From Aggregatilinea lenta (GTDB lineage: Bacteria > Chloroflexota > Anaerolineae > Aggregatilineales > Aggregatilineaceae), in assembly GCF_003569045.1 (NCBI RefSeq), contig NZ_BFCB01000001.1:651189-715188 (forward strand): a stretch of 64,000 nucleotides of DNA. Direction: 5' to 3'. The translations under genes were made by a program, and so were the position numbers. The notes under the pieces were generated by a model that did no database searches, was not told the DNA's origin, and saw only the letters and a program-made list of their open reading frames with translations. How positions within the stretch are numbered: the first letter of the stretch is position 1; each line of letters begins with the position of its first letter. Positions 12,479 through 56,160 of the stretch are shown one piece after another.

Positions 12479-14218
12479 ATGAGCAAACTCTTCTCTCACA
12501 CCCTGTTCGGATTCCGCCTGCGCACGCTGGCGATCCTCGCGGCGCTGGGGCTGGCGGCACTGCTGGCGCTGGCCGCCGATCTGCACTTTCACGGCCAGGT
12601 TTACAATCTGTTCTGGAACGTCACGGGCGAGACGGAACCCGCCAAGCAGATCCTCGGCTTCGGGCAGTACCTCGCGCGCTTCACCCGCCAGCAGCCGGAC
12701 ACGGAACCCTACGCGGATTTCCAGCACAACAACGTGAATCCGTTCGGCGTGAACACGTTTCTGGAGCAGGAAGTCGAGCCGGAAAAACGCGAGCGTCAGG
12801 TCCAGATGATCGCGGACGCGGGCTTTCACTGGATCCGCCAGCAGTTCACGTGGGAAGACATCGAGATCGACCACAAGGGCAATTTCATCGACCGGCGCGA
12901 GGGGCGTGATCTCAACCTGGACGGCGTCGTCAGCCCGGACGAAGAGGTCAGCACGTGGGAGAAGTACGACGACATCGTGCGCCTGACGGACGAGTACAGC
13001 CTGGAAATCATCGCACGGTTGAGCACGCCGCCCGCGTGGAGCCAGCCCGAAGGCACGACCAACGGCTTCGCGCCACCCGCCGATTTTCAGGATTACGTCG
13101 ATTTTGCGACGACCGTCGCCACGCGTTACCAGGGCCGCATCTACCATTACCAGATCTGGAACGAGCCGAACCTCTATCCCGAATGGGGCGACCAGACGGT
13201 TAACGCCGAGGCGTACACCGACCTGCTGTGCCGCACGTATACGGCGCTGAAGGCGGTCGATCCCGGCATCATCGTTATCACCGGGGCCATCGGGCCGACC
13301 ATCGACCTGAGCGGCACCAACGCCTACGACCTGCTCTATTTGCAGCGCATGTATCAGGCCGGGGCGGGCGACTGCTTCGACGTGCTCAGCGTGCAGGGCT
13401 ACGGCCTGTGGAGCGGCCCGACCGACCGCCGCCTGCGGCAGGTGACGATCAACTTCCCGCGCCAGGAGTGGATCCGCGACATGATGGTCGCCAACGGCGA
13501 CGCGGACAAGCCGATCTGGATCAGCGAAGTGGCCTGGGATCCGGTGCCGAACGATCCGGCCATCGCGGACCTGGATCGCTACGGCATGGTCACGATGGAC
13601 GAAGCCGCCGAGTGGGCACCGCTGGCCTACGAGCGCGCGCTGGAAGACTGGCCGTGGGTCGGCGTGATGGCGTACTGGTACTTCAAGCCCGCCGACGAAA
13701 CGAACCTCGGCCAAAGCTGGTATTACTTCCGCCTCGTCGAGTCGGACTTCACGCCGACGCCCGTTTACGACGCGCTCAAAGCCTACATCATCGGGACGCA
13801 GCCCAAGACCATCGGTGCGGGGCGGCACGGGACAATCGGCGGAGCCTTGATCCAGACCGAAGACGGCGCCGAATCGCGCACGTACCGCATCGACGGCACG
13901 GACGTGTCGCTGTGTTACGCCGCGCTCGACGTTCCGATGGCGGTTTACGTTCAACAGGGCGACAACGCCCACACGATCACGCTGTCCGCAGGCGATCCCG
14001 GCTGCACGGTCGTCGCGGAGGATCTCGGCCCCGGTACGCACCTGCTCACGCTCACCGCGCCGGAATGGACCGGGCTGGACAGCCTCGCCATCGTGGACCG
14101 GACGTGGCGCGCCGCGCTGCCGTGGCTGCTGGCGGGTTCGCTGGCGGCGCTCGGCGTGCTGATCGTGCTCGGTGCGGCGGTGGTGGGGCGTGTACGTATG
14201 GGGCGTGTTCGCGCATGA
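12479..14218 (+). CDS. Membrane-anchored clan GH-A glycoside hydrolase-like protein
   Basis: This 579-residue protein has an N-terminal membrane segment (about 13-33) and a C-terminal one (about 544-570). Between them is a TIM-barrel GH-A domain with the acid/base in YQIWNEPNLYPEWG (E229) and a nucleophile candidate in IWISEVAWDP (E350), a layout like GH5/GH39 enzymes. Residues 440-540 form a beta-rich C-terminal domain. It probably acts on a glycan at the outer face of the membrane; linkage unknown. Its TGA overlaps the ATG of the next gene by four bases, so the two are translated together. Sequence after the first membrane helix (QVYNLFWNVTGETEP) is not recognised. Confidence 0.85.
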   Translation: MSKLFSHTLFGFRLRTLAILAALGLAALLALAADLHFHGQVYNLFWNVTGETEPAKQILGFGQYLARFTRQQPDTEPYADFQHNNVNPFGVNTFLEQEVEPEKRERQVQMIADAGFHWIRQQFTWEDIEIDHKGNFIDRREGRDLNLDGVVSPDEEVSTWEKYDDIVRLTDEYSLEIIARLSTPPAWSQPEGTTNGFAPPADFQDYVDFATTVATRYQGRIYHYQIWNEPNLYPEWGDQTVNAEAYTDLLCRTYTALKAVDPGIIVITGAIGPTIDLSGTNAYDLLYLQRMYQAGAGDCFDVLSVQGYGLWSGPTDRRLRQVTINFPRQEWIRDMMVANGDADKPIWISEVAWDPVPNDPAIADLDRYGMVTMDEAAEWAPLAYERALEDWPWVGVMAYWYFKPADETNLGQSWYYFRLVESDFTPTPVYDALKAYIIGTQPKTIGAGRHGTIGGALIQTEDGAESRTYRIDGTDVSLCYAALDVPMAVYVQQGDNAHTITLSAGDPGCTVVAEDLGPGTHLLTLTAPEWTGLDSLAIVDRTWRAALPWLLAGSLAALGVLIVLGAAVVGRVRMGRVRA

Positions 14219-16314
14219 GATCCGCGCGCGGGCGTGGCTGGATGCTCCCGGCGCTGGCGCTCGTGCTACTGCTCGCGGCGGGCCTGCGGTTTCACCTGCT
14301 CGGCGCGCAGTCCTTGTGGAACGACGAAGGCAACAGCCTACGCCTCGCGCAGCGCGGCGTGAGCGATCTGATCGACGCGGCGGGCCGCGACATCCATCCC
14401 CCCGGCTACTATTTGCTGCTCAAAGCCTGGATCGCGGGCGCGGGCACGACCGAGTTCGCGCTGCGGGCGCTCTCCGCGTTGGAAGGACTGATCGCGGTGG
14501 CGCTGGCAATCGCGCTGGGCCGCGCCCTGTTTGCGCGTCCGGCGGGGATCGCTGCCGGGCTGCTGGTGGCGCTCAGTCCGCTGGCCGTGTACTACAGCCA
14601 GGAAACGCGCATGTACGCCCAACTCGCGCTGTTGGCCGTCGCGAGCATGTGGATCTTCGTCGTGTGGCTGCGGCGGTTCAGCGTGTTTTTGGACGAAGCT
14701 CCCCCTCCTTCGCTTTCTTTGCCGGGCTTTCTTTCCGCGAAAGAAAGCCGCGCTTTTTTCTGGCTTCTCGCTCTGGGACTGTGCAACGCCGCCGGGATGT
14801 ACACGCAGTACTCGTTCGCGTTCACGCTGGCGGCGCAGGTCGTGTGGCTGCTGGTCTGGAGCGCCGCGCGCCGCCTGGACCGGACCGCGCAGCGCGCCCT
14901 GATCGCGTATGGCGCGGCGGGACTGCTGTCGCTGGCGCTGTTCCTGCCCTGGCTGCCGACCGCGTGGGATCAGGTCACGGCGTGGCCGCGCACGGGCGTC
15001 GAGATGGCCGTCAGCGAACAGGCGCGCGCCGTCCTGACCTGGATCACGGTCGGGAACACGGCGGGCACGGTCGGCTGGGCGATTCTGCTGCTCCCGCTGC
15101 TGCTGGCGGCGCTCTCGCTGATCCCCCCGCGCGGCTCGCGGCGCAAGGATGTGTTGTGGCGGGCGAGTCTGCCGCTGGCCTGGGCCGGGATCGGCGTGGC
15201 GGCGCTGGTTGCGTCCGGCGCGTACCGCGAGGCGAACCTGAAATTCCTGCTGCCCGCGCAGATCGCGCTGGCGGTGAGTCTGGGCGGGGGATTGTGGCGG
15301 GCGTGGCACGTTGTAAGCGGACCTTACCCCGGGACCCTCTCCAATCAAGTTGGAGAGGGGAGCACACCATACGAGGCATCTCGCCCCTTCCCTCCGCGTG
15401 TGTGGGGGAAGGGGATGGGGGATGGGGGGCGGTTTTTCGCCCCTACCGCGTTTTTACGTCTCGCGGCCCTCGCCCTGACCGGCCTGCTGGTCACCGGGCA
15501 GATCGCGGCCCTCGACGCGCTGTACACCGATCCGGCCTATGCGCGCGACGACTACCGCGCGATGGCGGCGCGCATCACGGCGGAAGCACGCCCCGGCGAC
15601 GCCGTGATCCTTGATGCGCCCAATCAGGCCGAGGTGTTCAGCTACTACTATCACGGGGCGGCGGCGGTCTACGAACTGCCGCGCGGCCTGGGCGGGGACG
15701 ACGACGCGACCCGCGCCGAAGTCCGTGCCGTGATCGCGGCGCACGACCGGATCTGGGTGCTGTTCTGGGGCGAGCAGGAGCGCGATTCGCGCCGTGTGGT
15801 GCAGGCCACGCTCGACGCGGAGACGTTCCCGGTGCGTTCGGAGTGGTATGGCGACGTGCGGCTGGCCGAATACGCCGTGCTGGCGGAACCGCCCGCCGCG
15901 CCGGACGTGACGTTGAACGCGTTGTTCGGGGATCGCGTGGCGCTGGATGGCTACGCACTGAGCGATGACGCTGCGCAGCCCGGCGACGTGGTCGGTGTGT
16001 CGCTGTTCTGGCGTGCGGATGCACCGCTCGACGTGCGCTACAAAGTCACCGTGCAGCTTCTCGCGCCGGACGGATCGCTGGTCGATCAGCACGACGCCGA
16101 GCCGGGCAACAACCAGCGCCCCACGGTGACATGGGAGCCGGGCGAGACGGTGATCGACCCGCACGGGCTGGCCGTGCCGCCGGACGCGCCGCCCGGCGAT
16201 TACGCGATCATCGTGGGCGTATACGATGCGGCGAACCCCAAGCAGCGGCTTTCCGTCACAGGCGACGGCGCAGCCGCCGATCATCTGGATCTGGCCGCGC
16301 TCACCGTGCGTTAA
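14215..16314 (+). CDS. GT39/ArnT-like polytopic membrane glycosyltransferase with in-frame repeat insertion
   Basis: This 699-residue protein starts with a membrane helix followed by LWNDEGNSLRLA (D37-E38), the acidic loop motif of the PMT/ArnT lipid-linked glycosyltransferase superfamily, then DIHPPGYYLLLKAW and about ten further hydrophobic segments. The last 200 residues are a soluble beta-rich domain. Such enzymes transfer sugar from a polyprenyl carrier at the outer membrane face. Two loops look like repeat DNA translated in frame: residues about 370-405 (repeat A copy 2) and about 160-182, encoded by a perfect hairpin region. Homologues should lack these. ATG overlaps the upstream stop (ATGA). 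Confidence 0.85.
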   Translation: MRSARGRGWMLPALALVLLLAAGLRFHLLGAQSLWNDEGNSLRLAQRGVSDLIDAAGRDIHPPGYYLLLKAWIAGAGTTEFALRALSALEGLIAVALAIALGRALFARPAGIAAGLLVALSPLAVYYSQETRMYAQLALLAVASMWIFVVWLRRFSVFLDEAPPPSLSLPGFLSAKESRAFFWLLALGLCNAAGMYTQYSFAFTLAAQVVWLLVWSAARRLDRTAQRALIAYGAAGLLSLALFLPWLPTAWDQVTAWPRTGVEMAVSEQARAVLTWITVGNTAGTVGWAILLLPLLLAALSLIPPRGSRRKDVLWRASLPLAWAGIGVAALVASGAYREANLKFLLPAQIALAVSLGGGLWRAWHVVSGPYPGTLSNQVGEGSTPYEASRPFPPRVWGKGMGDGGRFFAPTAFLRLAALALTGLLVTGQIAALDALYTDPAYARDDYRAMAARITAEARPGDAVILDAPNQAEVFSYYYHGAAAVYELPRGLGGDDDATRAEVRAVIAAHDRIWVLFWGEQERDSRRVVQATLDAETFPVRSEWYGDVRLAEYAVLAEPPAAPDVTLNALFGDRVALDGYALSDDAAQPGDVVGVSLFWRADAPLDVRYKVTVQLLAPDGSLVDQHDAEPGNNQRPTVTWEPGETVIDPHGLAVPPDAPPGDYAIIVGVYDAANPKQRLSVTGDGAAADHLDLAALTVR
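14725..14759 (+). repeat. Perfect hairpin with T6 tail inside the glycosyltransferase gene
   Basis: GGCTTTCTTT (14725-14734) and AAAGAAAGCC (14740-14749) form a perfect 10-bp stem over a CCGCG loop; after GCGC comes TTTTTT (14754-14759). It lies in the sense direction inside the coding sequence and resembles an intrinsic terminator or inserted repeat. Confidence 0.6.
15322..15430 (+). repeat. Repeat A, copy 2, inside a coding sequence
   Basis: ACCTTACCCCGGGACCCTCT, the CTCTCCAATCAAGTTGGAGAG hairpin and CCCCTTCCCTCCGCGTGTG followed by GGGGGAAGGGG reproduce both modules of repeat A. It is read in frame as a Gly/Pro-rich loop between two predicted membrane helices of the GT39-like protein. Confidence 0.85.
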
Positions 16315-52455: not shown

Positions 52456-52609
52456 GACCTTACCCCCGGCCCCTATCCGATCATGTTGGAGAGGGGAGAC
52501 AAGCAGCGCCAAACGTGGCGTTGTAGGGGCGGAAGCTTGTTCCGCCCGGATTTTTGCATTTTCCCCTTCCCTCCGCTTGCGTGGGGGAAGAGGCTGGGGG
52601 ATGGGGGGC
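52456..52609 (+). repeat. Repeat A, copy 4, with internal repeat B module
   Basis: GACCTTACCCCCGGCCCC and GTTGGAGAGGGGAGACAAGC form the left module. TTGTAGGGGCGGAAGCTTG followed by TTCCGCCCGG is the inner B-type module. CCCCTTCCCTCCGCTTGCG with GGGGGAAGAGG is the right module. The region lies between convergent genes. Confidence 0.8.
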
Positions 52610-52637
52610 GATGCGGTTGGGGCGTATGTTCTGTGCG

Positions 52638-54652: not shown

Positions 54653-54682
54653 AAGCAGAAGCAACGGCAAGAGCAAACGCGA

Positions 54683-54795
54683 CCTCACCCCCGGCCCCTC
54701 TCCAATCAAGTTGGAGAGGGGAGACAAGCAGCGCCCAGCAGGGTTTTGTAGGGGCGGGTTTGCAACCCGTCCGGCTCTTGCTTTTTCCCCTTCCC
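54683..54795 (+). repeat. Repeat A, copy 5, left part (interrupted by the IS3 element)
   Basis: CCTCACCCCCGGCCCCTC and the CTCTCCAATCAAGTTGGAGAG hairpin form the left module, then TTGTAGGGGCGGGTTTGCA with ACCCGTCC is the inner B-type module. The right module starts as CCCCTTCCC at 54787-54795 and stops at the IS. It continues at 56049. Confidence 0.85.
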
Positions 54796-55985: not shown

Positions 55986-56048
55986 GCGCCTCTCCTGATT
56001 TCTCCAGTCTACGACTTTTCTTCTGTCCGAGAAATCGGGGGAAGGTCA

Positions 56049-56091
56049 CCCTCCGCTTGCGTGGGGGAAGGGGCCAGGGGATGGGGGGCCG
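56049..56091 (+). repeat. Repeat A, copy 5, right part after the IS
   Basis: CCCTCCGCTTGCGTGGGGGA and AGGGGCCAGGGGATGGGG complete the right module started at 54787. CCC at its left edge is the duplicated target. Confidence 0.85.
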
Positions 56092-56160
56092 TAGGGGCAG
56101 TTCACGAATTGCCCCGCTCACCGGTCCTGACGGTAGGGGCGTATCGCAATACGCCCCTAC
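56091..56160. repeat. Two repeat B palindromes side by side
   Basis: GTAGGGGCAGTTCACGAAT followed by TGCCCCGCTC (56091-56118) and then GTAGGGGCGTATCG with CAATACGCCCCTAC (56133-56160). They lie between repeat A copy 5 and the end of aroC. Confidence 0.75.

Follow-up and report, generated by a model that had tools for sequence, protein, structure and literature searches.

A palindromic repeat read in frame in a predicted membrane glycosyltransferase of Aggregatilinea lenta, and apparently recurrent insertions in its gene family

A short dispersed palindromic repeat, repeat A, is read in frame inside a predicted membrane glycosyltransferase gene of Aggregatilinea lenta, and the family to which this gene belongs appears to have been the target of independent A-type insertions more than once. 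In-frame repeats in bacterial genes are known already (RPEs, REPs, and RUs); what appears to be new, judging from the literature searched, is the recurrent capture of repeats by one family of membrane enzymes. We analyzed a 64,000-nucleotide stretch of the genome (the window), in which the host gene occupies positions 14215 to 16314 of the forward strand. ORF calling showed it to be open from its ATG to its stop, with 699 codons free of stops and a product of 699 amino acids. The PMT_2 domain (PF13231) was found at residues 61 to 152 (E = 2.2e-8; 34.9 bits against a cutoff of 26.1). The best Foldseek matches were ArnT (5ezm), oligosaccharyltransferases, and similar enzymes, with TM-scores of only about 0.36 to 0.55; we take the ArnT and oligosaccharyltransferase matches to be GT-C enzymes. 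By domain and fold, the protein therefore qualifies as a putative PMT_2/GT-C glycosyltransferase with a predicted enzymatic role. The open frame, the domain, and the genome-wide matches of the repeat bear out the preliminary description of this DNA, which had read repeat A as translated without a stop inside a membrane glycosyltransferase.

The stretch that has no counterpart in homologues spans about 15310 to 15453 on the forward strand (144 nucleotides [nt], 48 codons, roughly residues 366 to 413; the limits are approximate), was delimited by alignments and low model confidence (pLDDT of <50), and has a hairpin z score of −4.16. Within it, repeat matches identified block A at 15320 to 15362, whose palindromic core at 15335 to 15359 is the exact 25-nt sequence CCCTCTCCAATCAAGTTGGAGAGGG, and block R at 15380 to 15433 (both forward strand). 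In five other A-R composites of this genome, A and R are separated by a third palindromic block (GTAGGGGC or a one-base variant of it); the host gene lacks this block. Judged by eye, CGCCCCTAC at 15434 to 15453 (forward strand) may be a remnant of a GTAGGGGC-type palindrome. A full element had been proposed at 15322 to 15430; the location was right, but the stretch is a little longer and, without its middle palindrome, is not the full composite. The consensus of A is stop-free in five of the six reading frames, and the 144-nt stretch in three of the six, including the frame of the host gene; the predicted loop sequence includes the peptide VGEGSTPYEASRPFPPR. We also searched by eye for a target site duplication near 15320 and 15433. 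GCGG is present at 15317 to 15320 and at 15429 to 15432, but other composites had no consistent duplication, and none is claimed here. A second repeat-like insert is read in frame in loop CL2 of the same gene (14695 to 14763, forward strand), with six partial matches elsewhere in the genome (about 36 to 41 nt, 84 to 92% identical). Loop CL2 is short and lacks this insert in L034 to L037, and other homologues hold different inserts there.

Repeat A is abundant in this genome. Allowing up to three mismatches, its core had 195 matches in 6.2 Mb (a few diverged places being counted on both strands, as the core is palindromic), whereas the reversed pattern had none; the exact core occurred at 63 places, 62 of them outside the host gene. 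Block R had 32 matches at up to three mismatches, against none for its reversed control. In the window, the A core matched three times at this threshold, compared with no match in 100 shuffles. Other forward-strand copies in the window are an A-R composite at 52456 to 52612 that retains the middle palindrome, an A copy at 54681 to 54723, and R copies at 1871 to 1924 and 56039 to 56092. The repeat is unevenly spread, as about 1.4 Mb of one contig (C3, about 0.81 to 2.25 Mb) contains none of the 63 exact cores. The coding windows that lie closest to A copies on their two sides (e.g., L001 to L030) often converge or share a strand, as also described for REPs in the available text of PMC3733652. 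A transposase partner for the repeat was sought in this genome and not found: as candidates for a RAYT transposase there were two Y1_Tnp matches, but at distances up to about 1.5 kb from each locus no exact copy of CCCCTCTCC or GGAGAGGGG was seen, and a single GTAGGGGC lay near the first (L141), with none near the second.

An in-frame copy is exceptional in this genome. We applied a codon-usage frame caller (correct in 137 of 141 windows) to a core set of 101 distinct places with up to three mismatches. These make up about half of the 195 matches, and the rest of the 170 hits screened were reverse-strand echoes at these same places; an initial count of 104 fell to 101 on recount, as three places proved to be such echoes of the palindrome. 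The host gene was the only one of the 101 that was open and coding in one single frame on both sides. Another 19 places outside this set gave no in-frame case, which makes 1 in 120 distinct places screened. We repeated the analysis in G060, a relative that is rich in the repeat and belongs to a different family of the same order; it was picked since its homologue of the host gene carried the repeat. G060 had 212 pattern matches, of which about 100 were listed; the fetched loci held 108 sites with up to three mismatches, and after 22 near locus ends were dropped, 86 were tested (frame caller correct in 622 of 656 windows). Two of the 86 were in frame, and both lie in PMT_2 proteins. One is the homologue of the host gene (L047). 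The other, L268, is a different PMT_2 protein (score of 27.1 bits, cutoff of 26.1) with the A-type repeat in a loop at about residue 163. The same two cases were obtained with the codon table of the other genome (88 sites tested). By eye, the C-terminal tail of L268 also looks repeat-like.

The loop is absent from related proteins, as the preliminary description had anticipated. Twelve same-family homologues that cover it (L033 to L043 and L046; 52 to 59% identical) align without the insert, and the loop measures 49 residues in the host protein, compared with a median of 14 in 85 homologues. No A-type motif was found at the CL5 position in the 85-homologue alignment other than in the window's own row. 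The alignment and tree omit L032, a partial gene that was handled apart (the alignment was built after removal of 18 partial loci and 16 duplicates, with 2 loci giving no match). In L032, from another genus (genome G006), this loop also holds an A-type repeat, whose opposite orientation points to a separate insertion, so that no homologue outside the genus appears to hold the loop as an inherited sequence. These data bear on the idea of an ancient loop with a function in the glycosyltransferase, from which the repeats elsewhere derive or on which they converged. The intact frame and the retained conserved residues that flank the insert would fit such a history, but 62 further places in the genome share exactly this 25-nt core and not one of them was called in-frame coding, and a loop in this orientation is missing from every homologue in the set. 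We rejected this explanation on both grounds and regard it as extremely improbable. A recent origin of the insert, raised in the preliminary description as a recent allele, is likely rather than proven: the 25-nt core matches the consensus exactly, and three differences are seen across the 43-nt A block.

The structural model places the insert between two membrane helices, in agreement with the initial reading of the sequence. AlphaFold2 gave a mean pLDDT of 86 for the host protein (alignment of 24 sequences), with values below 50 at residues 370 to 398 and 400 to 407, between helices 339 to 365 and 410 to 438. For topology, we counted helices from a cytoplasmic N terminus and placed the D37/E38 loop outside, relying on the model and on general topology rules; this conserved loop is presumably external, as in GT-C enzymes, and served to orient the protein. 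With this orientation, the inserted loop CL5 would face the cytoplasm, opposite the active-site side. The homologues without the loop and the low pLDDT between helices make it well supported that the insertion was tolerated because it sits in a loop, as had been suggested, a conclusion that draws on alignments and the model. The two repeat-like insertions in one gene might instead indicate a decaying pseudogene, or the frame might be an accident of assembly. We find this very improbable, given the 699 codons without a stop, codon usage that is coding in one single frame on either side of the insert, an assembly of 5 contigs, and the recurrence of the pattern in several homologues. Many residues are also invariant across all 24 aligned sequences, which include five of the eight A carriers, and the host protein keeps them. 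We rejected a pseudogene.

We then looked at inserts across this one membrane protein family (PMT_2), to which both the survey and the tree are confined. Among 85 homologues, inserts of at least 10 residues were located in CL2 (18 cases), CL3 (12), CL5 (7), and CL4 (1), all loops predicted to be cytoplasmic; elsewhere there were none in any extracytoplasmic loop, one at helix 8, and two in the C-terminal domain. Thus, 38 of the 41 cases of inserted segments lie in putatively cytoplasmic loops. Long loops were often hairpin rich at the nucleotide level: the z score was below −2 in 17 of 37, compared with 15 of 222 windows taken as controls from other parts of these genes (P = 1.5e-5). The other 20 long loops did not reach a z score of −2, and six of the seven long CL5 loops, all but that of the host gene, were neither A-type nor hairpin rich. 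A profile built from A copies of the window's genome was too specific for other glycosyltransferase genes (it recovered the window copy, L039 at E = 0.0013, L050 at 0.17, and L155 at 1.2), and we used in its place a looser A motif with reversed and shuffled controls. This motif was present in 11 of 87 genes; its reversed form was present in 2, and codon-shuffled genes gave 0.75 on average (maximum, 3). It also matched L157, L189, and L192, which fall outside the 51-genome set described below and were not counted as A inserts.

For the order Aggregatilineales, we could use the best homologue from 51 of 61 genomes, one per genome. Eight of the 51 had A-type inserts, in different loops predicted to be cytoplasmic and in both orientations. 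The seven carriers in the tree require seven changes, six of which are forced by well-supported branches, and the carrier label was no more clustered than shuffled labels. From these sequences, the family of the host gene seems to be a repeated target of apparently independent A-type insertions. Carriers were also concentrated in repeat-rich genomes. The four genomes with the most A matches (500, 215, 150, and 61) all carry an A insert in their homologue, and the five that follow (54, 49, 28, 20, and one of the two with 17) do not. At a cut of 15 A matches, 5 of 10 genomes at or above it were carriers (the other five repeat-rich genomes had no A insert in the gene), compared with 3 of 41 below it (P = 0.004); the P values were 0.015 and 0.001 at cuts of 20 and 50. 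Without the window's genome, the proportions were 4 of 9 and 3 of 41 (P = 0.015; 0.048 and 0.007 at cuts of 20 and 50). All of these P values are indicative, as the cuts were set after the data had been seen and G060 had been picked as a carrier.

Other repeat families occupy the same loops as the A-type inserts. The CL2 insert of L039 has from at least 31 to at least 66 matches (both strands counted) in each of the five genomes assigned to its genus group (G005, G013, G015, G016, and G017) and lies at the same place in G013, G005, and G016. For the CL2 insert of L043, we counted 51 matches in G017, a number that includes the insert itself and covers both strands; nearly all of them fall in an inner repeat at about positions 111 to 209, and the outer part is probably also a repeat. 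A search of G006 with the CL5 insert of L032 gave 42 matches, counting the insert itself, and most of these were to either of its two palindromes. The CL2 insert of L033 is single copy, matching only itself in its own genome. On inspection, positions 670 to 930 of L043 show a genomic repeat nested in a longer repeat-like insert, all translated in frame, and the CL2 and CL3 loops of L171, L182, L190, L208, and others hold stretches that look like repeats, together with short tandem motifs that form part of the translated sequence. It could be argued that the repeats prefer DNA motifs within these loops, an integration hot spot in place of random landing followed by selection, as one gene family has independent A-type insertions recurring in a small set of loops and both in-frame cases of G060 are PMT_2 proteins. 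Against such a preference, the inserts differ in orientation and in where they sit within the loops, these loops hold several different repeats, and 119 of 120 screened copies in the A. lenta genome and 84 of 86 in G060 are not in-frame coding. We consider a target preference improbable.

The best explanation, and in our view a highly probable one, is passive insertion of a nonautonomous, mostly stop-free palindromic repeat that is retained solely in loops free of constraint. A composite of short, GC-rich, nonautonomous palindromic repeats (A plus R, the middle block missing) would have entered the loop between helices 339 to 365 and 410 to 438, the copy presumably being supplied by transposition-like movement through a putative enzyme. 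The A consensus has few stops, and the frame was kept. Because the loop is predicted to be cytoplasmic and away from the active-site side, the added residues would form a disordered loop that selection tolerates. The same filter may operate elsewhere, through unconstrained loops, many paralogous genes, and a repeat supply that grows with copy number, and this would be why independent repeats of this and other families are found in putatively cytoplasmic loops of other genera.

Three groups of known repeats resemble this case. The Rickettsia RPEs are short palindromic dispersed repeats of about 150 bp found in frame in protein genes that are likely still functional, and the available parts of the sources report them in many unrelated genes (PMC3733652, PMC10969869). 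The likeness, by description and not by sequence, is a short palindromic dispersed repeat in frame within a protein gene. The Rickettsia elements differ in belonging to another phylum and in their many unrelated hosts, whereas the three screened in-frame copies here are all in PMT_2 proteins; nor did we meet a high, RPE-like in-frame frequency (1 of 101 core plus 19 further places in A. lenta, and 2 of 86 in G060). REPs have been found inside ORFs of several species, and Chloroflexi are among the phyla with GTAG repeats, according to the accessible text of PMC3733652. That text also describes two Xanthomonas recB genes with different REPs at about the same site, which offers a same-site parallel to a dispersed repeat within coding sequence. 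Many of its REP-bearing ORFs are DNA synthesis or repair genes, and the words "membrane" and "glycosyltransferase" are absent from its main text (PMC3733652). In contrast to GTAG REPs, the consensus of A (GACCTCACCCCCGGCCCCTCTCCAATCAAGTTGGAGAGGGGAGACAAGC) carries no GTAG tag at either end; a GTAG-like appearance is confined to the GTAGGGGC-like block that the host gene lacks. The MITE-like RU-1, RU-2, and RU-3 of enterobacteria are small intergenic repeats that can be fused in frame to genes, as here; in the accessible portion of PMC2759123, they lie at C-terminal regions of large family proteins, outside conserved domains, and no recurrent loop is described, whereas the inserts here recur in internal loops. 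In the literature searched, by title and the start of the abstract (most subscription papers and supplements lay beyond reach), we found no report of repeat hot spots in membrane glycosyltransferase loops.

A bolder interpretation is that the cytoplasmic loops of the PMT_2 family are landing pads, where many repeat families have been captured independently across Chloroflexota, diversifying this face of the protein and perhaps proving useful. We think this unlikely; if it were true, RNA hairpins or disordered loops might be of use, e.g., in translation pausing between helices or in tuning contacts with partners. For practical purposes, repeat-derived residues in such loops should not be mistaken for conserved domains. 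Many repeat insertions in genes have been seen once and cannot be compared, whereas here there is a series of apparently independent insertions of known repeats, which share a small number of loops and occur in both orientations. The PMT_2 series therefore lets one ask how selfish DNA turns into protein, and whether this involves tolerance only or also gain.
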